Source: a virus
DNA length: 24,590 nt
Strand: one strand, 5' to 3'
IMG/VR virus record: IMGVR_UViG_3300042540_000242
Span: 1 to 24,590 of that record
This document shows, piece after piece, positions 3,214 to 24,171 of this stretch (positions within the stretch are counted from its first letter, which is position 1; the number at the start of each line of letters is the position of its first letter). Both the position numbers and the translations under genes were made by a program. The notes beneath the pieces were generated by a model, which was not told where the DNA came from, made no database searches, and worked only from the letters and a program-made list of their open reading frames with translations.

Positions 3214-4776
3214 ATGAACATCGAAGTATTTGGATTTGAATTTGGTAAAAAACGCTCTGCACAAGATGCAAGCGCATATGATGTTTTAAGTGGCCCAAAA
3301 AGATTAATTGCCAAAGAAGAATTTGATGGAACCGTCGCGGTTGAAGCTGGCGGTGTATTTGGCACTTACGTAGATTATTCGGCATCTTTAAAGGACGAAA
3401 ATGCAAACATCGTCCAGTACCGGAACATGTCACTGTACCCGGAAGTTGATGCCGCAATAGATGAGATCGTAAACTCCTCCATAGTATGGGGTACAGATCG
3501 CAAGCCAGTAAAATTAGACTTGACTGATGTACCACTTTCTGACATGGTAAAACGCAAGATGCATCTCAGCTTTGAGCGCATTCTGAAGATGATGGATTTT
3601 AATTCAAAGGCATATGAAATCTATCGCCGATGGTATGTTGACAGCAAACTTTTTTACTATGTCATCATTGATGAAAAAAATCCAAAAGACGGAATTCAAG
3701 AACTAATTCCTCTTGATCCGTTAAAAATTAAAAAGATTCGAAATGTCCAAAAAGAACCAGCTAGCCTGAGCACTGGCATGGTAGCCCTGATTAAGAATAT
3801 TGAAGAGTTTTATCTTTATTCGAATACAGATAAAGAATCTTTTTTGACTACTCCAAATCAAGGAATTAGAATTGCCAAGGATGCTATTGGATACGTCCAC
3901 TCAGGCATCATTGACCTGAATAGCAAGCGCGTAATTGGCTATTTACACAAGGCAATCAGACCTATCAACATGTTGCGCCAGTTGGAAGACGCACTGATGG
4001 TTTACCGCGTTGCTCGCGCACCGGAAAGAAGAGTATTTTACGTAGACGTTGGTCAGCTTCCAAAGCAAAAAGCAGAGCAATATCTACGTGACATGATGTC
4101 TCGTTTCAGAAATAAAATTGTTTACAACCAAGGATCTGGTGAAATTAAAAATGATCTCAACCATTTATCGCTTCTTGAAGACTATTGGATTCCTCGCAGA
4201 GAAGGCTCCAGAGGCACCGAAATTTCAGTGCTGCCGGGGGGCCAAGCAATGTCCCAGATCGAAGACGTTGACTACTTCAAAAAGAAACTGTACTCAGCGC
4301 TAAACGTTCCTATCTCCAGACTTGATACCAATTCTGGTTTCAATATGGGTCGTACAACCGAAATCTCCAGAGAAGAGATTAAGTTTTACAAATTCATTGA
4401 ACGGCTTCGTCACCAATTTGGTCAAATTTTCTTGCAACTGTTAAAAGTCGAATTGCTTTTGTCAGGAACAATGACCGAAGACGATTGGAACAGTATTAAG
4501 TATTATGTTAAACTCCAATACAATACTGACAACTACTTCTGGGATATCAAAGAAACAGAAATTCTTGCTGAACGTCTAAAGATGGTATCTGTAGCTGAAG
4601 GATTTGTAGGCAAATACATTTCTCAAAGTTATATTCGTAAAAATATTCTTCGTATGACTGATGAAGAAATGAAAATAATGGACGGTGAAATTCAAGAAGA
4701 TGCAATGAAACTTCAGGCCCAACAAGCTGCTGAAGCTGCGCAGGGAGTTCCCCCTGAAGGAGAGCAGCAGGCATGA
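3214..4776 (+). CDS. gp20: Portal vertex protein gp20
   Basis: Protein of 520 aa (T4 gp20 is 524). Twelve copies form the ring at one capsid vertex through which DNA is packed and to which the neck binds. The typical T4 portal series is present: MSLYPEVDAAIDEIVNSSIV near residues 72-92, HLSFERILKMMDFNSKAYEIYRRWYVDSKLFYYVIID near 111-147, a PERRVFYVDVGQLPKQKAEQYL block near 272-292, and RREGSRGTEISVLPGGQ near 328-344. The C-terminus is rich in Ala and Gln. Its stop overlaps the next ATG by four bases. Identification is secure. Confidence 0.97.
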   Translation: MNIEVFGFEFGKKRSAQDASAYDVLSGPKRLIAKEEFDGTVAVEAGGVFGTYVDYSASLKDENANIVQYRNMSLYPEVDAAIDEIVNSSIVWGTDRKPVKLDLTDVPLSDMVKRKMHLSFERILKMMDFNSKAYEIYRRWYVDSKLFYYVIIDEKNPKDGIQELIPLDPLKIKKIRNVQKEPASLSTGMVALIKNIEEFYLYSNTDKESFLTTPNQGIRIAKDAIGYVHSGIIDLNSKRVIGYLHKAIRPINMLRQLEDALMVYRVARAPERRVFYVDVGQLPKQKAEQYLRDMMSRFRNKIVYNQGSGEIKNDLNHLSLLEDYWIPRREGSRGTEISVLPGGQAMSQIEDVDYFKKKLYSALNVPISRLDTNSGFNMGRTTEISREEIKFYKFIERLRHQFGQIFLQLLKVELLLSGTMTEDDWNSIKYYVKLQYNTDNYFWDIKETEILAERLKMVSVAEGFVGKYISQSYIRKNILRMTDEEMKIMDGEIQEDAMKLQAQQAAEAAQGVPPEGEQQA

Positions 4777-7722: not shown

Positions 7723-9150
7723 ATGAGCTTTAGAGACGAAACCCCATATGACATTCTCACTGAAAAGTGGAATCCCGTGCTTAAGCACGATGCGCTTCCC
7801 TCAATCGGTGACGAGTGGAAATCAAAAGTTACCGCAGTTCTGCTTGAGAATCAAGAGCAGTCCATGCGCGACCAGTACCTCACCGAGAACATGACAACCG
7901 GTAGCGACATCGGTAACGTAGTTGCTACAACTGCTGCTGGTGGTCTGCGCGGATATGACCCAATCCTCATCAGCTTGGTTCGTCGCGCTATGCCAAACCT
8001 CATGGCTTACGACATCTGCGGCGTTCAGCCAATGACTGCTCCAACTGGCCTCATCTTCGCGATGCGTGCTAAGTACGGCGACAGCTCAATCAACGCTATC
8101 ACCAACGAAGCTCAGTTCCAAGAGCCCGATGCTCGCTTCTCAGGCGTAAGCGGTGCATCAGGTGGCTTTACCGCAGCAGGCGGCACTTCACCAAGCGCAA
8201 TTGGTGTTAACCCAACTGCAACATCTGCAGCATTCACCAGCGGCAAAAACCTTGCCACTTTCACTGGTCTTCGCGCACAGCTCACCTCAAACGGTGAAAA
8301 CCTCAGCTACGATGCAGGTTCAACTGCTACCAACGTACTGAACAAGATGTCTTTCACCATCGACCGTGTCGCAGTAGCAGCCGCAACCCGCGCTCTGTCT
8401 GCAGGCTACACCGTTGAATTGGCACAAGACCTCAAGGCTGTTCACGGTCTTGACGCTGAAGCCGAACTCGCTAATCTTCTCAGCACAGAAATTCTTGCTG
8501 AAATCAACCGCGAGATCGTCCGCAGCATCTACTGGGTTGCCCGTGCAGGATCTCAGCAAACTGACATCACTGGCGCAGGAACCTATAACCTCGACCTCGA
8601 CTCCGATGGTCGTTGGTCAGCCGAGCGCTTCCGTGGTCTGGTCTTCCAGATTGAACGTGAGTGCAATGCAATTGCCAAGGAGACTCGCCGTGGTAAGGGT
8701 AACTTCGTCATCGTCTCAAGCGATGTCGCATCAGCCCTCGCTATGTCAGGCTTCCTCAACCTCTCACCCGCACTAAACACACAACTCGCAGTCGATGACA
8801 CTGGCAGCACCTTTGCTGGTCTCTTGAACGGTAAGCTCCGTGTTTACATCGATCCTTATTCTCAGCTCGGCGTTAACTTCTTCTGCGCTGGTTATAAGGG
8901 CGAGTCACCGTATGATGCAGGTATCTTCTACTGCCCATACGTTCCTCTCCAAATGATGAGAGCTATCGATCCCGCTACCTTCCAACCCCGTATCGCGTTC
9001 AAGACCCGTTACGGCATGGTTGCCAACCCATACGTTCTGAAGACTGACGGAACCCCCTACGGTTCTGACTTCACCACTCAGAGCGGAGCTAACCAATACT
9101 ACCGCCTCACCGCAGTAACTGGTCTCCACGGCAACACCTACGGATCCTAA
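7723..9150 (+). CDS. gp23: Major capsid protein gp23
   Basis: Protein of 475 aa (T4 gp23 is 521). It forms the hexamers of the head shell (HK97 fold). Diagnostic blocks are VRRAMPNLMAYDICGVQPM with PTGLIFAMRAKYG (about residues 86-120), VELAQDLKAVHGLDAEAELANLL near 227-249, EILAEINREIVRSI, RGKGNFVIVSSDVASAL near 323-339, and AGIFYCPYVPLQMMRAIDPATFQP with FKTRYGM near 404-436. The N-terminal propeptide is present. By alignment with T4 (cut after LTE65), cleavage is expected after YLTE at residue 55, although the next residue is Asn rather than Ala. This gene is much richer in G+C than the sugar block (35 of 60 bases at 8161-8220). Confidence 0.98.
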   Translation: MSFRDETPYDILTEKWNPVLKHDALPSIGDEWKSKVTAVLLENQEQSMRDQYLTENMTTGSDIGNVVATTAAGGLRGYDPILISLVRRAMPNLMAYDICGVQPMTAPTGLIFAMRAKYGDSSINAITNEAQFQEPDARFSGVSGASGGFTAAGGTSPSAIGVNPTATSAAFTSGKNLATFTGLRAQLTSNGENLSYDAGSTATNVLNKMSFTIDRVAVAAATRALSAGYTVELAQDLKAVHGLDAEAELANLLSTEILAEINREIVRSIYWVARAGSQQTDITGAGTYNLDLDSDGRWSAERFRGLVFQIERECNAIAKETRRGKGNFVIVSSDVASALAMSGFLNLSPALNTQLAVDDTGSTFAGLLNGKLRVYIDPYSQLGVNFFCAGYKGESPYDAGIFYCPYVPLQMMRAIDPATFQPRIAFKTRYGMVANPYVLKTDGTPYGSDFTTQSGANQYYRLTAVTGLHGNTYGS

Positions 9151-10374: not shown

Positions 10375-11871
10375 TTATAATTTGATCTTAAAAACTTTAT
10401 AATCAAATTTTTCTTTGTCGTAGATCTTCAGTCTTTGTTCAAAGTGTTTTAGTACATGGTTTTTGTAACTTTTCCATGAAAGGTCATCAACAATGTCAAA
10501 CACCTTTAAGGTCTTTTTAGTGGCTGAGGTTCTCAGTCCTCTTCCAATGCTCTGTAGTAGTCTAATAATTGATTTAGTGGGATGTGCAAATATGATGTTG
10601 TCAAGGTGGACAATGTTGATCCCGGTGCTCGTAGTACCGAAAGAAGCGACAAGTATTGCGTCTGTTTCTTTGTCAATGATTTTTCTGATTGCTTCTCTAT
10701 TTTCTGCATCAGTTTTCCCCGAAATGAAATAAACTTTCTTACTGGGATACTTGGCTTGTATGAGGTCATATAATGGCTTTCCGTGTCGTTCCACATAGTT
10801 AAACAATACTAAAGTATTACCTTTAGTTTCACCACAAAGTTTGGCAATAAACTCGTTTCTAGCGTGGCAGTCTACCAAGAATCCGGTCTCCTCTTGGTAT
10901 TTGGCTTTCTTTAGTCGGTCGCGGGAGGTATCGTCGTAATCCAGTTTTATACAGTCTATAGCCAGCCTAGCGAGGACTCCTTGACCAATTAGCCCTTTGG
11001 TCGTAATAAACTGTACGGAAGCCCCTAGGGTGCCTTCTATGGACAATTTATGGGCCATAGTTTGGTCTAGGGTGCCCGTAGTTCCCAACCTAAACCATGC
11101 TTTGGTCAATTTTTTACCAATATTAACCAAAGAGTCAGCTTTTACCAGATGGCATTCATCAAAAATTACAGCATCAAACTGATCAAACCATTGTTTAGGA
11201 AGTTTATATACGGACTGCCAAGTGGATACAATTATTGGTTTATGTGTGTCCTTTTCCTTGCCTGCAGTAATTTTATGTAAATATTTGGTAACTGACCAAG
11301 ATTTATCATTTTTTGAATAGTCAAAAAAGTCAGCCTCCATCTGTTGTACTAGCCCCACAGTGGGAACCAATAATAAAATTTTCTTAGGTGCTTGCACGAA
11401 AAATCTTAACAGATATCGAATAATTAAATAAATGATCAATGATTTTCCGCTTCCTGTTGGGGAAACAATCACTGATCTACTTTGGTTAAGAGCATGGATA
11501 ACAGCTCTTTTTTGGTGACTATGTGCTACCGCTTTGTTCTTTTTTACGGTAACATTTAAAGATTCAAAAAACTGATCAAAACTATAATCAGTCATGTCAA
11601 TGTTTTTTAAATCTTTTTCATCAAATAACAAGTAATAATTTCTTTCTTCACAAAACTTTTGCAAGTAAGTCTTTAGACCTCTAGGCAAAGTTGAACTATT
11701 AATTTCGTATAATTTAATTTTGCCATCCCATATACGGGACTTGTAAAGTGGCATATACTCTGCACCAGGAACTTTAAATGAAAAATATGAGCGAAGTTCA
11801 CGTTTTACTGAATCTTCACAATCAATTTTATATTTGGTTTGATCCTCTGCGGACGCTATAATAGTATACAC
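10375..11871 (-). CDS. uvsW: UvsW DNA/RNA helicase
   Basis: Protein of 498 aa (T4 UvsW is 502). It is a superfamily 2 helicase that reverses stalled forks, moves branched recombination structures and dissolves R-loops at early origins. Motif I is SPTGSGKS (137-144), motif II DECH (238-241), motif III TTGT (264-267), and motif VI QSIGRGLR near residue 446. The small N-terminal double-stranded-DNA-binding domain is recognisable by YKIDCEDSVKRELRSYFSF (14-32), which matches T4 (VRIDCEESTFHELRDFFSF). The start is GTG at 11871. Homology supports it, but AGG lies directly against it, so initiation is unusual. Paired with uvsY upstream on the same strand, as in T4. Confidence 0.96.
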   Translation of the reverse strand: MYTIIASAEDQTKYKIDCEDSVKRELRSYFSFKVPGAEYMPLYKSRIWDGKIKLYEINSSTLPRGLKTYLQKFCEERNYYLLFDEKDLKNIDMTDYSFDQFFESLNVTVKKNKAVAHSHQKRAVIHALNQSRSVIVSPTGSGKSLIIYLIIRYLLRFFVQAPKKILLLVPTVGLVQQMEADFFDYSKNDKSWSVTKYLHKITAGKEKDTHKPIIVSTWQSVYKLPKQWFDQFDAVIFDECHLVKADSLVNIGKKLTKAWFRLGTTGTLDQTMAHKLSIEGTLGASVQFITTKGLIGQGVLARLAIDCIKLDYDDTSRDRLKKAKYQEETGFLVDCHARNEFIAKLCGETKGNTLVLFNYVERHGKPLYDLIQAKYPSKKVYFISGKTDAENREAIRKIIDKETDAILVASFGTTSTGINIVHLDNIIFAHPTKSIIRLLQSIGRGLRTSATKKTLKVFDIVDDLSWKSYKNHVLKHFEQRLKIYDKEKFDYKVFKIKL

Positions 11872-11890: not shown

Positions 11891-12328
11891 TCAAGAAATG
11901 CCATTTACAAGTTTGTTCCAATCGATAGCAGACTTAATGGCATAATTACGGTTAGAAAGAACTTTTAAAAAGTCTTCAACCATTTTAATTTTTATTTCAA
12001 GAATGTTAAGATCAGTTTTAATTTTAAGCAGTGTAGGATCTGCATCCATGAATTTGTCTAGTGCGGTTTTTAATACGTCTAACTCAAAGGGATCTTCTTG
12101 CCACTGTTCCAATTCTTCCTTTGATGCTTTCCCGCTGTATATTTTCCACTTACGAAGTTTCATTATGGCAAATGCATTTTGTAACTTTTGGTATTCTATT
12201 CTAAGATCTGCATGGATAGAGAGGTACTTTCCATGTATTGCAGGAGTCCTTAAGGCTTCTTTAGCTAACTCTGTAGAGTCTATTAAAGAATCCTTTTTAA
12301 GTTCTTCTTTAAGGGTTTCTAGATTCAT
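11891..12328 (-). CDS. uvsY: UvsY recombination mediator
   Basis: Protein of 145 aa (T4 UvsY is 137). UvsY loads the UvsX recombinase onto gp32-covered single-stranded DNA. The N-terminus MNLETLKEELKKDSLIDSTELAKEA aligns well with T4 MRLEDLQEELKKDVFIDSTKL, which also fixes the start. YSGKASKEELEQW near residues 64-76 corresponds to YYSGRGDGDEF, and the C-terminal LSNRNYAIKSAIDW near 125-138 to IKSRGFAIKHIQDM. A sigma70-type promoter lies so close that only about three bases of leader are predicted, and no ribosome-binding site is seen. It lies directly upstream of uvsW. Confidence 0.93.
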   Translation of the reverse strand: MNLETLKEELKKDSLIDSTELAKEALRTPAIHGKYLSIHADLRIEYQKLQNAFAIMKLRKWKIYSGKASKEELEQWQEDPFELDVLKTALDKFMDADPTLLKIKTDLNILEIKIKMVEDFLKVLSNRNYAIKSAIDWNKLVNGIS

Positions 12329-12428: not shown

Positions 12429-13106
12429 ATGATAATAGACTTACGAACTATTCCCACCGTGTGGATCAATCTAGACAGCGCCACTGTAAACGCAAGTTTA
12501 ATGGAACAACGTTTCCGTGAACATCGTTTTCAGACAACTTTTAGAAAGTCGGCTAGACAGATTGCACCACCATCCAATACTCCTAAAGTAATTGAACATT
12601 ACGTAGGGTGTGCGCAATCTCATATCGATATTTTAGAGGACATGACTTATGCATGTCCTTTATTAATTTTAGAAGATGATTGTGAATTTACTAAAGACTT
12701 TCATCCAATGATTGAAATTCCAGATAATACTGATGCAGTGTATCTTGGCGTTTCTTCTGGCAATCCACATTACATTACCAAAGAAGTAAACAAATATTTT
12801 ATGAGAATTGGTAAAATTTTAGCAACACATGCGATTTTATATATCAACAATGATTATAGAAAAATGATTGCTGAAATTGCCAAATTGTATGCATATAGGT
12901 TAAGGATACCATTTGATAATGGCTGCGCGCTTATTCAAGAGCGATTTAATGTTTTAACTCCCAATAAACCATTTTTTGTTCAATCTGATGCAAGAGAAAG
13001 TGCAAATCGCTGGGAAGCTATTACGGCCAGACCTCTTGTAAATAAAAATAGTGAATTTCCTGTTAGGGAAGAAAACGTCACTCTTCAATTTCAGGTGCCA
13101 GCATGA
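12429..13106 (+). CDS. Glycosyltransferase, GT25-like (copy 1)
   Basis: Protein of 225 aa of the LPS-biosynthesis type GT25: VWINLDS (11-17) near the start, CAQSHIDIL (61-69), and the nucleotide-sugar/metal motif LILEDDCEF (79-87) with Glu-Asp-Asp. DAVYLGVSSG near residue 105 and CALIQERFNVLTP near 180 are further conserved places. It probably adds a sugar to a lipopolysaccharide or capsule chain in the cytoplasm. The donor is unknown. It has a clear paralogue at 13888. Its stop overlaps the next start by four bases. It is the first gene after the consensus promoter at 12374-12401. Confidence 0.8.
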   Translation: MIIDLRTIPTVWINLDSATVNASLMEQRFREHRFQTTFRKSARQIAPPSNTPKVIEHYVGCAQSHIDILEDMTYACPLLILEDDCEFTKDFHPMIEIPDNTDAVYLGVSSGNPHYITKEVNKYFMRIGKILATHAILYINNDYRKMIAEIAKLYAYRLRIPFDNGCALIQERFNVLTPNKPFFVQSDARESANRWEAITARPLVNKNSEFPVREENVTLQFQVPA

Positions 13107-13891
13107 TTACATTTCAACATTTAGGAAAGTATGGGCGTCTTGGAAATCAAATGTTTCAATATGCCACTTTGTACTCGCTAGGAAAAACTTTAAACTATTC
13201 GATTGGGGTTCCATATAAAGCCAGAAGTTCAAATGACAAATTGGATTTTTGTTTATCTGATGGATTTGAAATTAGCGCATCCGATTCTTCAAATGCATTT
13301 TCTACTTCAGTTTATGTCGAACCACATTTTAATTATGACTCAAACATTTTAAATATTCCAGATGGCTGTGATATTAGAGGGTATTTTCAATCTGAAAAAT
13401 ATTTTAAAAGTCATAAAAATGATTTAAAAAACAAAGAATTTAAATTTAAAACAGATGTTGAAAACAAAGTCAAATCTTTATTTGATGGAAACGATTCAGA
13501 ATTAATATCTGTACATATTAGACTGGGTGATTATGTGCATATTCAGGATTGTCACCCTATTTGTTCAATAGAATATTATAAACAAGCTTTATCTCAATTA
13601 CCAAAAGACTGCCAAGTTATTTTGTTTAGTGATGATTATCCAAAAGCATTGGAGATGTTTAAGTCTTTTGGTATTAATGTTATGCTTATGGGAGGCAATG
13701 ATAAATTTGTTGATATGTGTATGATGACAAAATGCGATTATCACGTAATTGCAAACAGTTCTTTTAGCTGGTGGGGAGCGTGGCTTTCTAATAGTAAAAA
13801 AATAATTGCTCCTAAGATATGGTTTGGCAATTCTCCTAATGTTGCAAAAAATTGGGATGATATTTATTGTGATGGGTGGGAATTAATATGA
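13103..13891 (+). CDS. Alpha-1,2-fucosyltransferase, GT11
   Basis: Protein of 262 aa, somewhat short for GT11 (about 280-300). Family blocks in order: GRLGNQMFQYA (11-21), GYFQSEKYF (93-101), SVHIRLGDYVH (136-146, the HxRRxD donor-binding motif), a YYKQAL helix after HPICS, FSDD (175-178), and ANSSFSWWGAWLS (217-229). It transfers fucose from GDP-fucose to the 2-position of galactose, the step that makes H-type antigens in animals and in some bacterial O-antigens. The second Arg of HxRRxD is Leu here. Four-base overlaps on both sides couple it to the GT25-like genes. The acceptor is not known. Confidence 0.88.
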   Translation: MITFQHLGKYGRLGNQMFQYATLYSLGKTLNYSIGVPYKARSSNDKLDFCLSDGFEISASDSSNAFSTSVYVEPHFNYDSNILNIPDGCDIRGYFQSEKYFKSHKNDLKNKEFKFKTDVENKVKSLFDGNDSELISVHIRLGDYVHIQDCHPICSIEYYKQALSQLPKDCQVILFSDDYPKALEMFKSFGINVMLMGGNDKFVDMCMMTKCDYHVIANSSFSWWGAWLSNSKKIIAPKIWFGNSPNVAKNWDDIYCDGWELI

Positions 13892-14559
13892 TTATCGACA
13901 TACCTTCTGTAAAAACATATTATGTTAATATGGATAATAAACCAGAAAGAAAACAACAAACAGAAAAGTTGTTAAACGACTTAAATTTTACAAATTATCA
14001 AAGGTATTCGGCCAAAACTGGACAAAATGCAATTGAAGGTTGTGCCCTATCACACATTGATATTTTACGTTCAAATAAAGGAAATACTCCATTTCTAATT
14101 TTAGAAGATGATGTTACTGCTGCACAAGGGTATAGAAAACAAATTGAAGTTCCAGATGATGTAGATGCAATTTATTTGGGATATTCAATGTGGGGGTATG
14201 ACGCGGAGAGAGCAAAAAAGTTTTCTAAAATGGATACTCCGACTACATTTAAAAAGATTACAAAAAACATATATAAAATTTCAAACATGTTATCTACACA
14301 TGCAATCATGTATTGCAGTGAAAGATATTCTAGCGCTGTAGCAGACGTAATGGAAACAGTGTGGAAAAATGAACAATGGCACTGTGATTATGCGTGTGCG
14401 TTAATACAAGAAGAATTTAATGTTTATGCTCCTTCAAATCCATATTTTTTCCAATATGATTACTGGACTATGCCGTGGACTTACGTCCCTTTAGAAAAAT
14501 TTTATGAAATTAACATGGCATATAAGAAAGCAACTAATGACCAAAGAATCAACCCCTAA
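13888..14559 (+). CDS. Glycosyltransferase, GT25-like (copy 2)
   Basis: Protein of 223 aa from the ATG at 13888, which overlaps the fucosyltransferase stop as ATGA. A GTG four codons earlier is also open but less likely, because the paralogue also begins MIID. Motifs are YYVNMDNKPERK (11-22), GCALSHIDIL (51-60), FLILEDD (69-75), DAIYLGYS near 92-99 and CALIQEEFNVYAP near 172-184. It shares order and wording of motifs with the gene at 12429, so the two arose by duplication and now lie either side of the fucosyltransferase. Probably a cytoplasmic transferase of glycan assembly. Donor and acceptor unknown. Confidence 0.8.
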   Translation: MIIDIPSVKTYYVNMDNKPERKQQTEKLLNDLNFTNYQRYSAKTGQNAIEGCALSHIDILRSNKGNTPFLILEDDVTAAQGYRKQIEVPDDVDAIYLGYSMWGYDAERAKKFSKMDTPTTFKKITKNIYKISNMLSTHAIMYCSERYSSAVADVMETVWKNEQWHCDYACALIQEEFNVYAPSNPYFFQYDYWTMPWTYVPLEKFYEINMAYKKATNDQRINP

Positions 14560-15241
14560 AGTCGGCCTATTGGTCATTGCAACCAATAAGTATATTTCAT
14601 TTGTAGATCCATTAGTTGAAAGTGCTGATAAATGGTTTTTGCCAGAATGTGATGTAACATATTGCATTTTTACAAACAATTCAAAGCAATTGCAGACCAA
14701 CCGACACTTTAATATGATGCAAATAGAGCATGAACCTTGGCCTGCACCTACCTTAAAGAGATATGATTATTTTGATCAATATGAAGATTACTTAAAATCT
14801 TTTGATTATTTGTACTATTGTGATGCAGATATGAAATTTGTAGACATGGTAGGAAATGAAATCTTAGGAGAACTTGTTTCCACACTACATCCAGGATTTT
14901 GGGGTCAGTTAAATTTACAGTTTTCATACGAACGCAGACCAAATTGTAAAGCATATATTCCGTATGGCAGTGGAAATGCTTATTATGCTGGAGGATTTAA
15001 TGGAGGAAATGCGGAACAATTTTTAAAAATGTCAAAAATTATTGTGTCATGGAGAAAAGAAGATGAACAAAATGGATTGGTTCCGGTTTGGCACGATGAG
15101 AGTTACATGAATAAATACATGTACTTGAAACCACCTACAAAGGTGTTAACTCCAAGTTATTGTTATCCAGAATCTTGGAATATTCCTTTTGAAAAAAAGT
15201 TATTAGCATTAGATAAAAATCACAGCGAAATGAGATCATAA
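14537..15241 (+). CDS. GT6 glycosyltransferase, ABO blood-group enzyme family
   Basis: Protein of 234 aa from the ATG at 14537. An ATG at 14504 adds 11 residues that are unlike the family. The whole GT6 catalytic core is present: KVGLLVIATNKY (8-19), EHEPWPAPTLKRYDYF (64-79), LYYCDADMKFV (92-102) with an intact DxD metal motif, GNEILGELVSTLHPGFWG (106-123), YERRPNCKAYIP (131-142), YYAGGFNGG (149-157) and VWHDESYMNKY (184-194) with the Glu188 equivalent to the key Glu303 of human GTA/GTB. GT6 enzymes retain configuration and add Gal or GalNAc alpha-1,3 to galactose, often to H antigen. The substrate-choosing site reads A-G-G. It follows the GT11 gene by one gene. Confidence 0.92.
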   Translation: MTKESTPKVGLLVIATNKYISFVDPLVESADKWFLPECDVTYCIFTNNSKQLQTNRHFNMMQIEHEPWPAPTLKRYDYFDQYEDYLKSFDYLYYCDADMKFVDMVGNEILGELVSTLHPGFWGQLNLQFSYERRPNCKAYIPYGSGNAYYAGGFNGGNAEQFLKMSKIIVSWRKEDEQNGLVPVWHDESYMNKYMYLKPPTKVLTPSYCYPESWNIPFEKKLLALDKNHSEMRS

Positions 15242-16674: not shown

Positions 16675-17508
16675 ATGATATATTCAATATGCACTCAGTA
16701 TAGAAATGAAGAAAACAAATTAAAACCTTGGATTTTATATCATGTTGAACAAGGGTTTAATACGTTTATTCTTTATGATGACCATTCTTCTGATAATTCT
16801 ATTTTAATTTTAAAAGATATAATTCAAAGTTATAAAATTAATGTTATAATAAATCAAACAGACGTTAAAGAAAAAATGTATTCAAGTTCTTTACAGACAG
16901 AAGAATATCAAACAGATATACCATTAAACAAAAGAATTGCCAGATCATTTTTAAATGGGTTTAATACTTTTAATAAATTAAATACCTCTGTCGAAGGAAA
17001 AAATAAATCATTTTGTGCGTTTGTAGATGTAGATGAGTGTTTGACAACTGATACTAACAAATCTGTAGTAGAAACAATTAATTTATTATTTGATTTACAA
17101 AAAACAAATCATTTATACGTTCCAAGTTTTGATGTAAATACTTCTTTTTTAAATACAGATTTTGAAGTATTTTTACAAAAAGATACACAATATCGTTGGT
17201 CTGAAACAGAAAGGCAAACATTTAAGAATGGAAAATTTTTACACAGAGGAAAATCTATTGTTAAATTTGGATATGACTTTCCAATCAAACATGATTTACA
17301 TTCATGGTCTATAGTACATTGTGCAGGAGCAGTCGGAACAAATTTTGAAACTGCAATTCCTTTAGACTCTAATAAAAATTGCAATAGCACAGATTTAAGA
17401 ATACATCATTATCGGGTACCACCTAATGATGGATGTACATCTTTTTCTCAAAAAGATCCAACAACATATAACGAGTTTAAGAAAGTATACAGTAAATATG
17501 AAATATGA
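16675..17508 (+). CDS. Glycosyltransferase, GT92/GT2-like (DUF23 type)
   Basis: Protein of 277 aa, ATG immediately after the previous stop. Features of the GT-A group known as Glyco_tranf_2_4/GT92: YSICTQYRNEENKLKPWILYHVEQGF (3-28), FILYDDHSSDNS (31-42) and CAFVDVDECLT (114-124) with DxD. A late HSWSIVHCAG near 204-214 and IHHYR near 243-247 agree with the family. Members of GT92 add galactose to glycans, but the bacterial and viral ones are diverse, so the donor is left open. The end overlaps the mutase gene by 11 bases. Confidence 0.72.
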   Translation: MIYSICTQYRNEENKLKPWILYHVEQGFNTFILYDDHSSDNSILILKDIIQSYKINVIINQTDVKEKMYSSSLQTEEYQTDIPLNKRIARSFLNGFNTFNKLNTSVEGKNKSFCAFVDVDECLTTDTNKSVVETINLLFDLQKTNHLYVPSFDVNTSFLNTDFEVFLQKDTQYRWSETERQTFKNGKFLHRGKSIVKFGYDFPIKHDLHSWSIVHCAGAVGTNFETAIPLDSNKNCNSTDLRIHHYRVPPNDGCTSFSQKDPTTYNEFKKVYSKYEI

Positions 17509-18598
17509 TTACCTGATTGTGGGTTCTGGTCTTTTTGGTTCTATATATGCACAACAGTTAACCAAAGCTGGAAAAAAGTGCCTTATTATCGATAAAAGAA
17601 ATAAACTCGGTGGAAATGTACGAACAGACGAAGTAGAAAGTATACACGTACATTCATATGGACCTCATATTTTTCATTGTAATGATTTAAAAATTTGGAA
17701 ATATGTTAACTTGTATGCAAATTTTAATTCTTTTGTAAACAGACCAAAGGTAAATTATAATGAAAAAATTTATTCCTTTCCAATAAATTTGTTTACTATG
17801 TATCAGCTTTGGGGAACAAAAACGCCACAAGAAGCTGAAAAGAAACTAAATGAAGTGCGTGTTAAAATTTTAAATCCTAAAAATTTAGAAGAATGGATTT
17901 TATCTCAAGTAGGAGAAGAAATATATCAAACATTTGTTTATGGATATACAAAGAAACAATGGGGAAAATCTCCAAACGAATTGCCATCTTTTATTATAAA
18001 ACGTTTGCCAATACGTTTAAATTATGATGACAACTATTATACGAGTAAATACCAAGGTATACCTATTGGAGGATATACAAAAATGATGGAAAATATCATT
18101 GAAGGTATTGACATTGAACTTAATGTTGATTTTTTGAAAGATAGATCATATCTAGAGTCAAAAGCCAACAAAATCATTTACACTGGTATGATTGATGAGT
18201 TTTTTGATTATTCATTAGGAGAATTAGAGTATCGTGGATTGGAGTTCAAACATGAAGTGTTAGATATTCCCGACTACCAAGGAAATGCATTGGTCAATTA
18301 CACTAATTTTGAAATTCCTTACACCAGAATATGCGAACATAAACATTTTGAATTTGGAAATCAACCAAAAACTGTTATCACTAAAGAATATCCAAAAGCA
18401 TGGAAACGAGGCGAAGAAGCATACTATCCAATCAATGATGAAAAAAATAATTTAATGTTTTCCAAATATAAAGAATTGGGTATGTCTGAAAAAAAATATT
18501 TATTTGGCGGTAGGCTGGCTGACTATAAATATTATGACATGCACCAAGTTATTGGATCTGCATTAGTTAGAAGCCAAGTTGAATTGGAACAACAATGA
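17498..18598 (+). CDS. glf: UDP-galactopyranose mutase
   Basis: Protein of 366 aa, the usual length for bacterial Glf. It is a flavoenzyme that converts UDP-galactopyranose to UDP-galactofuranose. The start at 17498 (MKYDYLIVGSGLFGSIYA) gives the proper FAD-binding beginning. An ATG 24 codons upstream would add an unrelated sequence. Conserved sites include GSGLFGSIYA (9-18), LIIDKRNKLGGNV (28-40), HSYGPHIFH near 52-60, FVYGYTKKQWGK near 147-158, RLPIRLNYDDNYYTSKYQGIPIGGYTKM from about 169, ITKEYPKAWKRGEEAYYP near 298-315, and LFGGRLADYKYYDMHQVIGSAL near 335-356. It implies that the glycan contains Galf. Overlaps both neighbours (11 bases and 4 bases). Confidence 0.95.
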   Translation: MKYDYLIVGSGLFGSIYAQQLTKAGKKCLIIDKRNKLGGNVRTDEVESIHVHSYGPHIFHCNDLKIWKYVNLYANFNSFVNRPKVNYNEKIYSFPINLFTMYQLWGTKTPQEAEKKLNEVRVKILNPKNLEEWILSQVGEEIYQTFVYGYTKKQWGKSPNELPSFIIKRLPIRLNYDDNYYTSKYQGIPIGGYTKMMENIIEGIDIELNVDFLKDRSYLESKANKIIYTGMIDEFFDYSLGELEYRGLEFKHEVLDIPDYQGNALVNYTNFEIPYTRICEHKHFEFGNQPKTVITKEYPKAWKRGEEAYYPINDEKNNLMFSKYKELGMSEKKYLFGGRLADYKYYDMHQVIGSALVRSQVELEQQ

Positions 18599-19212
18599 AT
18601 AACAATTTTTTAAGTTTGTCTAAAAATAATTTAATTCAAGTTATTTTAGATAACAAGTTATACTGTGATGATAGAGGTAATATATATCATCCGGACTATG
18701 AACATGCATTATCTAAAAGTACAGGCATGTGGCAGTTTCCAGATGAATTTGCCGACCTGATGTTATTTCTTTACGATAAACCTATAAATACATTTTTAAA
18801 TATAGGAACATATAATGGCGTTTCTTTTAATTTATTGGCATCTTTTTTAAATGCATGTAGAAAAGTTAAATGTATTTCCATAGACCCAATAAATCATAAT
18901 CCCATAATACTTCCTAATTTTGAATATAACGATAAAATAAGTTTAAACTATAAAGATCAAAAATTTGATTTGGTATTTATTGATGGTGATCATTCTTATG
19001 ATTCCGTTAAAACTGATTATGAAAACGTAGGTAAATTTGCTAAATACTGTGTCTTTCATGACATTGATGATGATTTTATTAGAAATGATCCATCTTTAAA
19101 TGGTGGTGTTGCTAGATTTTGGGATGAAATAAAAAGTTCAAAATCCCATATAGAATTTAATTCCTCAAAAAAGATTATAAAAATGATGGGAATAGGCGTC
19201 TTATATGAATAA
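18595..19212 (+). CDS. SAM-dependent methyltransferase (Methyltransf_24-like)
   Basis: Protein of 205 aa overlapping glf by four bases. FLNIGTYNGVSFNLLASF near residues 67-84 is the cofactor loop, CISIDP near 93-98 the strand-2 acidic end, and DLVFIDGDHSYDSVKTDYE near 124-142 the typical block of the Methyltransf_24/cephalosporin-hydroxylase-like group. CVFHDIDDDF follows. It is not closely related to the other two small methyltransferase-like proteins of this block. Probably methylates a sugar of the surface glycan. Substrate unknown. It overlaps the next gene by eight bases. Confidence 0.72.
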   Translation: MNNNFLSLSKNNLIQVILDNKLYCDDRGNIYHPDYEHALSKSTGMWQFPDEFADLMLFLYDKPINTFLNIGTYNGVSFNLLASFLNACRKVKCISIDPINHNPIILPNFEYNDKISLNYKDQKFDLVFIDGDHSYDSVKTDYENVGKFAKYCVFHDIDDDFIRNDPSLNGGVARFWDEIKSSKSHIEFNSSKKIIKMMGIGVLYE

Positions 19213-20036: not shown

Positions 20037-20975
20037 ATGAAGTGTTTAGTTACAGGTGGAGCTGGATTTATTGGATCTAATTTGGTTGACCGTTTGATTT
20101 TAGAAGGACATGATGTAACTGTTATTGATAATGAATCATCAGATGCACATGATCATTTTTATTGGAATCCTTTAGCAAATAATTACAAATACAACATATG
20201 TGATTATATAATGTGTTCTGATGTCTTTAAAAGACATAATCCAGATGTAGTATTTCATATTGCTGCAGAGGCAAGAATTCAGCCATGCATTGAAGATCCA
20301 CTTAAAGCGGTAGAATCAAATATGGTTGGAACAGCAACTATACTTGAGTTGTGTAGACGTTATAAAGTAAAAAGAGTCATGTACTCTTCAACTTCATCTG
20401 CATATGGATTAAAAAATTCTTGCCCCCTTTCAGAAGACATGCCAAATGATTGTTTGAATCCATACTCCGTATCTAAAGTTTCTGGCGAAGAATTGTGCAA
20501 AATGTATTCAAGTTTATATAATCTTGAGACAATAATTTTTAGATATTTTAATGTCTATGGTGAAAGACAACCACTTAAAGGACAATATGCTCCTGTCATT
20601 GGAATATTTCAAAGACAAAAAAAGAATAATGAACCATTGACAATTGTAGGAGACGGTGAACAAAGAAGAGACTTTACTCACGTCTCAGATGTTGTTAATG
20701 CAAATATTTTAGCAGCAACCAAAAAATTTGAAGAATGGCAAACAGAAAATGCAAAACAATATTTGTATAAGTTTGGTCAAATTTATAATGTAGGAACTGG
20801 AACAAATTATTCTGTAAATGAAATTGCCAAGCTGATTGGCGGCAATACCATTAACATTCCTGCAAGATTGGGTGAGGCTAGAATTACTTTGGCCAATATA
20901 GATAAAATTAAAAAACATTTGAATTGGAAGCCTTCAATAGATTTGCCTACTTGGATTAAATCAAACTCTAATTAA
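20037..20975 (+). CDS. NAD-dependent UDP-hexose 4-epimerase (extended SDR)
   Basis: Protein of 312 aa, usual for GalE/WbpP-type epimerases. Rossmann motif GGAGFIGSNLVDRL (7-20), acidic end VIDNES (29-34), HIAAEARIQPCIEDP near 74-88, active-site YSSTSSAYG (116-124) and NPYSVSKVSGEE (141-152) with Tyr143 and Lys147, RYFNVYGERQPLKGQYAPVI near 169-188, and RRDFTHVSDVV near 211-221. It probably converts UDP-Glc/GlcNAc to UDP-Gal/GalNAc. That product is the donor for GT6 and the substrate of Glf in the same block. Whether it prefers the acetylated sugar cannot be told. GDP-fucose synthase is a less likely alternative, because the sequence follows the 4-epimerase pattern. Confidence 0.87.
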   Translation: MKCLVTGGAGFIGSNLVDRLILEGHDVTVIDNESSDAHDHFYWNPLANNYKYNICDYIMCSDVFKRHNPDVVFHIAAEARIQPCIEDPLKAVESNMVGTATILELCRRYKVKRVMYSSTSSAYGLKNSCPLSEDMPNDCLNPYSVSKVSGEELCKMYSSLYNLETIIFRYFNVYGERQPLKGQYAPVIGIFQRQKKNNEPLTIVGDGEQRRDFTHVSDVVNANILAATKKFEEWQTENAKQYLYKFGQIYNVGTGTNYSVNEIAKLIGGNTINIPARLGEARITLANIDKIKKHLNWKPSIDLPTWIKSNSN

Positions 20976-22586: not shown

Positions 22587-23561
22587 ATGAAAACTGCAAT
22601 AATCTCCGGCATTAATGGCCAAGATGGTTCTTATTTAGCAGAACATCTTTTGGATTTGGGTTATTTTGTAGTTGGTCTTAAAAGAAGAACTAGTACAATT
22701 ACAACTCAGAGAATTGATCATATTTATAGTAATCCAAATTTTAAATTGGAATATTATGATTTGAATGATGCTTCAGCGTGTTACCGTTACATTAACCAAT
22801 ATAAACCACAAGAAATCTATAATCTCGGGGCACAGTCTCACGTAAAGGTATCTTTTGACATACCAGAGCATACTGTCGAAGGTATTGTGTCTGGTACATT
22901 GCATTGGTTAGAAGCAATTAGAAACACGGATCCAACAATTAAATTTTATCAAGCCTCTTCATCAGAAATGTTTGGAGATAATCCAAATGTGCCAGAGCAA
23001 GGGTATAATGAATCTTCCAGACTATGCCCAGTATCTCCATATGCTGCAGCAAAAGTATGTGCACACAATTTAGTAAATATTTACAGAAACTCCTACAGTA
23101 TACATGCATCTTCTGGTATTTTGTTTAACCACGAATCTCCAAGACGAGGAGAAACCTTTGTCACCCGCAAGATAACAATGGCGGCAGCTAAGATTAAATT
23201 AGGTCTACAAAAGGAATTATGTTTGGGAAATCTACATGCCAAACGAGATTGGGGATTTGCTGGAGATTATGTAAAAGCAATGCATCTGATGCTTCAGCAA
23301 CCAAAGGCAGATGACTATGTTATATCAACAGGAAAGACATATTCTATTTGTGAATTTTTGGAAGAGGTATTTAATTATGCTGGGCTAAGTTGGAAAGACC
23401 ATGTTGTGGTTGATCCAAAGTTTTTTAGACCAATGGAAGTTCCGTATTTGTTGGGAGACTCGTCTAAGGCACAAAATACACTAGGATGGAAGCCGAGCGT
23501 AGACATGGTAGAACTATCCCATATGATGTATGATGAAGATTTAAAACTACTACAGGCTTGA
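22587..23561 (+). CDS. gmd: GDP-mannose 4,6-dehydratase
   Basis: Protein of 324 aa, near the short bacterial GMDs. It converts GDP-mannose to GDP-4-keto-6-deoxymannose, the first step to GDP-fucose, GDP-rhamnose or GDP-perosamine. Motifs are GINGQDGSYLAEHLL (8-22), QASSSEMFGD (122-131), SPYAAAK (150-156) with Tyr152 and Lys156, and NHESPRRGETFVTRKI (181-196), the GMD signature. YDLND (57-61) and NLGAQSHVKVSF (79-90) agree. No GDP-fucose synthase is seen in this window, so the partner would be elsewhere in the phage or in the host. Its G+C is higher than that of the genes just before it, which hints at a separate origin. Confidence 0.96.
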   Translation: MKTAIISGINGQDGSYLAEHLLDLGYFVVGLKRRTSTITTQRIDHIYSNPNFKLEYYDLNDASACYRYINQYKPQEIYNLGAQSHVKVSFDIPEHTVEGIVSGTLHWLEAIRNTDPTIKFYQASSSEMFGDNPNVPEQGYNESSRLCPVSPYAAAKVCAHNLVNIYRNSYSIHASSGILFNHESPRRGETFVTRKITMAAAKIKLGLQKELCLGNLHAKRDWGFAGDYVKAMHLMLQQPKADDYVISTGKTYSICEFLEEVFNYAGLSWKDHVVVDPKFFRPMEVPYLLGDSSKAQNTLGWKPSVDMVELSHMMYDEDLKLLQA

Positions 23562-23592: not shown

Positions 23593-24171
23593 ATGGCAAA
23601 GGAAAAACCAAAGAAACCAAAGAAGAAAAAGGATAAAGACGGCGATTACGTTGATAACGCCCGATTATATCAAGAGTTAGTAGATTACAAGAAGAAGAGA
23701 GAAGATGCTGAGAACTCTGGTAGAAAAAAACCAAAGCTACCAGATTACATAGGTGAATCTATTTTAAAGATAGCCAGCCGACTCTCTTATAGACCCAACT
23801 TTGCCAATTACAGTTACCGCGAGGAGATGGTCTCCGACGCGGTTTTAAACTGCATCACCTATATTGACAATTTTGATCCAGATGTTTCAAAGTCGCCATT
23901 CGGATATCTAACCCAGATTTGCTGGTTTTCCTTTGTAAGAATCATCAACAAGGAAAAGAAAGAAAAGTACATTCAGTTTAAGCTCGCTGAAAGCAAAAAC
24001 GATCCAGAGTTTCATAAGTGGTTCAATGAAAAGTTTTCTGGTGTGGAAAATGGCTTCAAGGATGCATTTGGTATCGGTGAAACCGAAGTAGAAAAGATGG
24101 ACAAACTTCTTGAAGGCAAGAAAAAAGGAAGAAAGAAGAAGGCCAAGGATACAGGTTCGTTAAATGTGTAA
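23593..24171 (+). CDS. gp55: Late transcription sigma factor gp55
   Basis: Protein of 192 aa (T4 gp55 is 185). It binds host core RNA polymerase and reads late promoters (TATAAATA type). The conserved core is visible: IGESILKIASRLSYRPNFANYSYREEMVSDAVLNCITYIDNFDPDVSKSPFGYLTQICWFSFVRIINKEKKEKYIQ covers about residues 53-129 and corresponds to sigma region 2, with T4 matches at the [20 protein letters not shown] and [24 protein letters not shown] places. Both ends are very rich in Lys. The C-terminus ends TGSLNV and lacks the SLDFLYE-like clamp-binding tail of T4 gp55. It overlaps gene 47 by eight bases. Confidence 0.93.
   Translation: MAKEKPKKPKKKKDKDGDYVDNARLYQELVDYKKKREDAENSGRKKPKLPDYIGESILKIASRLSYRPNFANYSYREEMVSDAVLNCITYIDNFDPDVSKSPFGYLTQICWFSFVRIINKEKKEKYIQFKLAESKNDPEFHKWFNEKFSGVENGFKDAFGIGETEVEKMDKLLEGKKKGRKKKAKDTGSLNV

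Follow-up and report, generated by a model that had tools for sequence, protein, structure and literature searches.

A glycosyltransferase gene of family GT6, intact and with a DXD metal motif, lies near a GT11-family gene in a fragment of a T4-like phage, a 24.6-kb virus record (the whole stretch of DNA that was analysed, henceforth referred to as the window), and most viral GT6 copies that we compared are likewise near a fucosyltransferase-family gene. Because GT6 stands beside the gene of a fucosyltransferase that would make its acceptor in many phages, A-blood-group-like sugars are probably built during infection, and on balance we favour the reading that GT11 and a metal-dependent GT6 form a phage mini-pathway of the blood-group type, ending in an A-like (or B-like) cap. 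The GT11 gene is the most informative feature of the cassette and was not remarked on in the initial annotation of this DNA; phage GT6 as such is already known (the copy with a DVD motif in cyanophage P-SSM2 is a deposited gene), and the GT11 linkage is what the present analysis adds and the pairing the part worth following. Our literature search, which was incomplete, found no report of a phage GT11-GT6 pair, only a remark on GT6 in two cyanophages.

Genomic context of the GT6 gene

The initial annotation had called the enzyme viral, and the genes that flank the glycan cassette (gp20, gp23, UvsW, UvsY, a late sigma factor and, also on the right, an SbcD-like, gp47-type nuclease) bear this out. 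The best phage relatives of the major head protein of the window are those of Synechococcus phages (about 54% identity), to which the portal protein is about 46% identical. The cassette itself is an 11-kb block between UvsW/UvsY on the left and the late sigma factor on the right, and the features recognised in and around it are as follows:

3214..4776, + strand: T4-like portal protein gp20 (phrog_213, 2.7e-184), which marks the contig as viral
7723..9150, + strand: T4-like major head protein gp23 (phrog_138)
10375..11871, - strand: UvsW-like helicase, left cassette border with UvsY
11891-12328: UvsY, left cassette border with UvsW
12429..13106, + strand: GT25-like protein, first in the cassette (PF01755 0.0012; phrog_2835 5.5e-6)
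13103..13891, + strand: GT11 transferase (alpha-1,2-fucosyltransferase family), 262 amino acids (PF01531 1.4e-21; phrog_2644)
13876..14559, + strand: GT25-like protein between GT11 and GT6, overlapping both (PF01755 8e-5, slightly under the curated cut-off)
14537..15241, + strand: GT6 glycosyltransferase with D96-A-D98 metal motif, A151-G152-G153 donor site and further residues H118, W185, D187, E188, K227 and R233
16675..17508, + strand: GT2/GT92-like glycosyltransferase (PF13704, PF01697)
17504..18598, + strand: UDP-galactopyranose mutase (TIGR00031, 375 bits; cut-off 303.75)
18595..19212, + strand: methyltransferase (PF13578)
20037..20975, + strand: NAD-dependent nucleotide-sugar epimerase/dehydratase, GalE-like (PF01370; TIGR01179 below its cut-off)
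22587..23561, + strand: GDP-mannose 4,6-dehydratase (GMD), first enzyme of the GDP-fucose route (TIGR01472, 423 bits; cut-off 415)
23593..24171, + strand: late sigma factor, gp55-like (phrog_234, 1.4e-50), right cassette border

The G+C content of the cassette is mostly lower (0.26-0.34) than that to its left (0.34-0.54) and in the last full bin (0.38), and this low G+C between positions 12429 and 23561 suggests that the cassette was acquired separately. Family searches recognised no flippase or polymerase in the window and, with GMD present, no GDP-fucose synthase.

Family, fold and active site of the window GT6

The 234-amino-acid frame is intact from ATG to stop in the translation, and its start codon at 14537 is backed by a 78%-identical relative (L017) with the same start position. 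The assignment to GT6 is firm: the protein matches Pfam PF03414 (CAZy GT6) over its full length (residues 8-233, E 2.2e-48, 165 bits, where the curated cut-off is 25 bits), and its nearest solved structures by sequence are BoGT6a of Bacteroides ovatus (2.9e-51) and human GTA (7.5e-45), E-values that exclude a chance match. The NCBIfam Gltr_6 score (216 bits) is below that model's own cut-off of 250. All the sequence blocks named in the initial annotation were located in the translation, with DAD at residues 96-98, HPGF at 118-121, YERR at 131-134, AYIP at 139-142, GGFNGG at 152-157 and WHDES at 185-189. In the alignment, D96-A97-D98 falls on D211-V-D213 of GTA and N95-A-N97 of BoGT6a, and the equivalents of GTA D211/D213, H233, W300, D302, E303, K346 and R352 are all kept, W185, H186, D187 and E188 forming the WHDE(S) block with the catalytic Glu, and H118 and K227 being the equivalents of His233 and Lys346. 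An AlphaFold model, for which the input alignment consisted of 34 window and locus proteins, reached a pLDDT of 95.3 and a pTM of 0.92, and each of its 50 best Foldseek matches was a GTA/GTB variant or BoGT6a (TM about 0.92, normalised by query length), so that the predicted structure has the GT-A fold in its GT6 form. Judged by its sequence, the gene is intact and predicted to be catalytically complete, and the window enzyme is an ordinary, well-formed GT6 member in its DXD form. A 958-amino-acid giant-virus (Megaviridae) protein in BFVD, A0A5J6VM96, also has a GT6 domain (TM 0.93 to the window model by query length).

Comparison with described enzymes bears on both metal use and donor. BoGT6a (4AYJ, 4CJ8) resembles the window GT6 in fold (TM 0.92, 38% identity), in its AGG triplet and in the other catalytic residues checked, but has NAN in place of DAD and is metal-independent, whereas human GTA and GTB (ABO), about 35% identical to the window GT6, have its fold (TM 0.92 by query length) as well as DXD and the catalytic residues and differ in donor site (LGG/MGA), Golgi stem region and host context. 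It has been reported that most bacterial GT6 enzymes are NXN, that BoGT6a needs no metal and that two cyanophages have GT6 (PMC3961637). The premise from which the initial annotation started, namely that characterised bacterial GT6 enzymes are NXN and metal-free, is incomplete, for the DXD enzyme of Parachlamydia acanthamoebae requires Mg2+ or Mn2+ (PMC3961637). The latter is, like the window GT6, a prokaryotic DXD enzyme, although its gene is on the bacterial chromosome of a protist symbiont (compared here by description), and by analogy metal dependence is an expected property of the window GT6. With regard to the donor, A151-G152-G153 sits at the columns of GTA residues 266-268, as the initial annotation had read it. 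There the triplet had been taken for a weak guide to specificity; it appears to be a better one, since the human AT scaffold, when given AGG, shows strong A (GalNAc) but no B activity (PMC6351642), and since AGG is also present in BoGT6a, which synthesises the A antigen (PMC3961637). On these grounds we favour UDP-GalNAc as the donor, the window triplet being that of A transferases if the meaning given to it in PMC6351642 carries over.

Linkage of GT11 and GT6 in viral loci

To place the pair in a wider context, GT6 and GT11 profiles were built and all loci scored; viral GT6 loci were thinned to 80% identity, and 5 kb of upstream and 3 kb of downstream sequence were required. Of 74 non-redundant viral GT6 loci, 51 had a GT11 gene no more than 3 kb away on the same strand, but only 5 of 76 control loci did (odds ratio 31, p 3e-16), the controls being anchored on GMD or UDP-Galp mutase, without GT6, and thinned and flank-matched alike. 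When thinned at 60% identity, 13 of 22 viral GT6 loci had a close GT11, and part of the linkage count is thus shared descent. The dependence is one-sided, GT6 being present in just 13 of 80 GT11-anchored viral loci; GT6 usually with GT11, and GT11 often without GT6, is the pattern expected if GT11 makes the acceptor. Furthermore, GMD occurred in 34 of 76 viral GT6 loci compared with 8 of 53 mutase-anchored loci, and GDP-fucose synthase in 21 of 76 compared with 1 of 53.

GT11 is usually upstream of GT6 (in 30 of the 34 pairs that lie within 1 kb). The two genes overlap by 4 bases, GT11 first, in B23, S-CAM9, S-8S53 and Bellamy, lie end to end in DSL-LC02 and are two genes apart in P-SSM2 and ACG-2014f, the last three phages also carrying GMD and GDP-fucose synthase; in the window the GT25-like gene intervenes. 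At least three viral groups can be told apart by their donor sites, AGG (window and P-SSM2), QNC and QGC (ACG-2014f, S-CAM9 and Bellamy; 100/100). GT11 was nearby in all 67 flanked QGC loci, with the two genes abutting in 52, and within 3 kb in none of 11 QNC loci (both unthinned), so some viral GT6 genes do not fit the GT11-GT6 scheme. The QNC (L019-L030) and QGC (L107-L186) triplets are absent from the vertebrate triplets tested in PMC6351642, and in the QGC group the C-terminal Arg is replaced by His or Gln. The described cassette most like that of the window is in P-SSM2, whose GT6 (PSSM2_268; 46% identity to the window GT6) has AGG and, in our alignment, DVD, which agrees with the initial annotation that it keeps DXD, and has GT11 a few genes upstream; the P-SSM2 cassette, however, has GMD with GDP-fucose synthase where the window has GMD with UDP-Galp mutase, and the other neighbouring genes differ.

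DXD and NXN enzymes in the GT6 tree

The GT6 alignment comprised 274 rows, which were drawn from phage records, IMG/VR and one-genome-per-species GTDB contigs and included BoGT6a and human GTA. Searches of viral records found GT6 in hundreds of viral contigs, where previously described GT6 enzymes were from vertebrates, bacteria and two cyanophages, and nearly all the fetched copies have the metal motif (DXD in 187 of 188, the window left out). The single NXN copy labelled viral comes from a faecal contig of 7.7 kb (L009, MT838506.1) that is unverified and possibly of bacterial origin. Among bacteria, the copies closest to the window enzyme (from the best 80 of 177 loci) were DXD in 26 cases, NXN in 49, NXT in 4 and NXD in 2; 55 of these 81 readable copies are thus Asn-first, nearly all NXN, and one more copy was unreadable. 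As near copies are included in both the viral and the bacterial counts and the bacterial set is such a selection, these are not natural frequencies. Mixed Asn-first motifs occur in or beside the NXN clade (NGT in L211, L245, L250 and L251, NGD in L221, NAD in L264) and may represent intermediate states or additional cases in which the metal site was lost. Among 101 genomes of the Dependentiae, the phylum of L191, 27 have a GT6 match that exceeds the family cut-off, and the four loci read (L511-L514) are DXD; bacteria that parasitise protists seem rich in metal-type GT6.

The phylogeny with attention to DXD and NXN that the initial annotation had called for places the window outside the NXN clade in both trees. 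The N-type rows form one clade in a quick tree of 183 rows (SH-aLRT 99), which persists at 82/88 in a careful tree of 93 rows computed without the columns of the motif and the donor site. The window and two IMG/VR relatives group at 100 inside the DXD part of the 183-row tree. Most of the DXD bacteria fall in a single clade of Dependentiae and Chlamydiae (99/99 in the 93-row tree), which in the 183-row tree takes in Babeliales and Verrucomicrobia too; the few remaining ones are dispersed across phage lineages. Several viral DXD lineages are intermixed with DXD bacteria (Dependentiae, Chlamydiae and Verrucomicrobia).

It is extremely improbable that the DXD of the window arose by reversal from within the bacterial NXN clade: the NXN-type rows hold together in both trees and none of 400 bootstrap trees had the window branching among NXN rows alone, although a looser arrangement, in which the window pair joins the NXN clade, was not rejected by an AU test (p 0.185), which means that the deep branching order is not firm. 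We therefore set the reversal aside as disfavoured by the trees and the bootstrap inspection. The initial annotation had also proposed a phage branch that bridges the vertebrate and bacterial enzymes, and the window enzyme does group with phage DXD enzymes, on a side of the tree (92/97) that also holds human GTA; a transitional lineage, perhaps one that served as a transfer vehicle, is nevertheless very unlikely, as human GTA, the sole vertebrate sequence used, is a very long branch whose placement is unresolvable (AU test of window with GTA, p 0.51), DXD bacteria of the Dependentiae and Chlamydiae are on the phage side and there are several separate viral lineages. The trees therefore support phage DXD branches and lend no support to a bridge. 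A cyanobacterial host origin was also considered and rejected: in the phylum to which L211 belongs, 11 of 386 genomes have GT6, and the four copies read were NXN or NGT, so that no DXD donor was seen among them.

Proposed function and alternatives

From its family and motifs we infer that the window GT6 would be a retaining, divalent-metal-dependent alpha-1,3-(N-acetyl)galactosaminyl- or galactosyltransferase. GT11 would put fucose on a terminal galactose to form an H-like Fuc-Gal acceptor, which GT6 would then cap with GalNAc, or less likely Gal, from the UDP-sugar; the product would be a branched A-like (or B-like) cap, with GT6 as the last step of the phage-borne pathway. During infection the cap may be added to precursors of the host's surface glycans or to glycans of the virion, and its purpose would most plausibly be to alter recognition by later phages or grazers. 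The reviewed bacterial GT6 enzymes BoGT6a, WbnI and BgtA use Fuc-alpha-1,2-Gal acceptors (PMC4202792), and Escherichia coli O86 has a like set, WbwK (GT11) and WbnI (GT6), which makes a blood-group-B-type O antigen (PMC4202792); unlike the window genes, these belong to a complete bacterial O-antigen cluster, and WbnI transfers Gal.

Several observations count against this mini-pathway, namely the altered motif of the window GT11 (see below), the GT25-like gene between GT11 and GT6, GMD without a recognisable GDP-fucose synthase, the lower linkage (13/22) on stricter thinning and the QNC loci (0/11 with GT11). In a rather improbable alternative, the DXD GT6 would act on an unfucosylated galactose end, in the manner of alpha-1,3-galactosyltransferase, while GT11 works elsewhere on the same large glycan, the two being near each other by co-membership of a cassette. 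The vertebrate GT6 paralogues GGTA1 and iGb3S do use non-fucosylated acceptors (PMC6351642), and the QNC viral and many DXD bacterial loci are without a near GT11; mere co-membership, however, sits poorly with GT11 being nearby in 5/76 other glycan cassettes against 51/74 with GT6, and with GT11 being the commonest glycosyltransferase family beside viral GT6, any other being found in at most 24 of 76 loci. It also seems unlikely, if less so, that the glycan product decorates the virion (capsid or fibre proteins) and not the host envelope: the window encodes several transferases and a methyltransferase and, with no flippase or polymerase recognised, lacks a full set of genes for lipid-linked export, but the same absence is expected if the phage edits the lipid-linked precursors of its host, and such genes are read as LPS modification in cyanophage papers (PMC9602691).

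Beyond the window, the GT11-GT6 pathway can be extended only tentatively to the suggestion that tailed phages, chiefly T4-like cyanophages but also members of other lineages, have a portable module of the ABH type, in which GT11 is followed by a metal-dependent GT6, and make blood-group-A-like or related branched caps in the open environment, with uncharacterised QGC and QNC donor sites in two viral subfamilies. If this were true, viruses would be a main reservoir of DXD-type GT6 outside animals.

In the window GT11 the HxRRxD motif of most others is changed to HIRLGD, so that the first Arg, which has been described as critical (PMC4202792), is kept and the second lost. This loss would predict a less active enzyme or one with a different donor. 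At least one alpha-1,3-fucosyltransferase belongs to GT11 (PMC4202792), and family membership alone thus does not fix an alpha-1,2 linkage. Leu or Ile takes the place of the second Arg in GT11 proteins from the window clade and from several QNC loci (window 13103-13891; L017, L020-L022, L026, L030 and L031).
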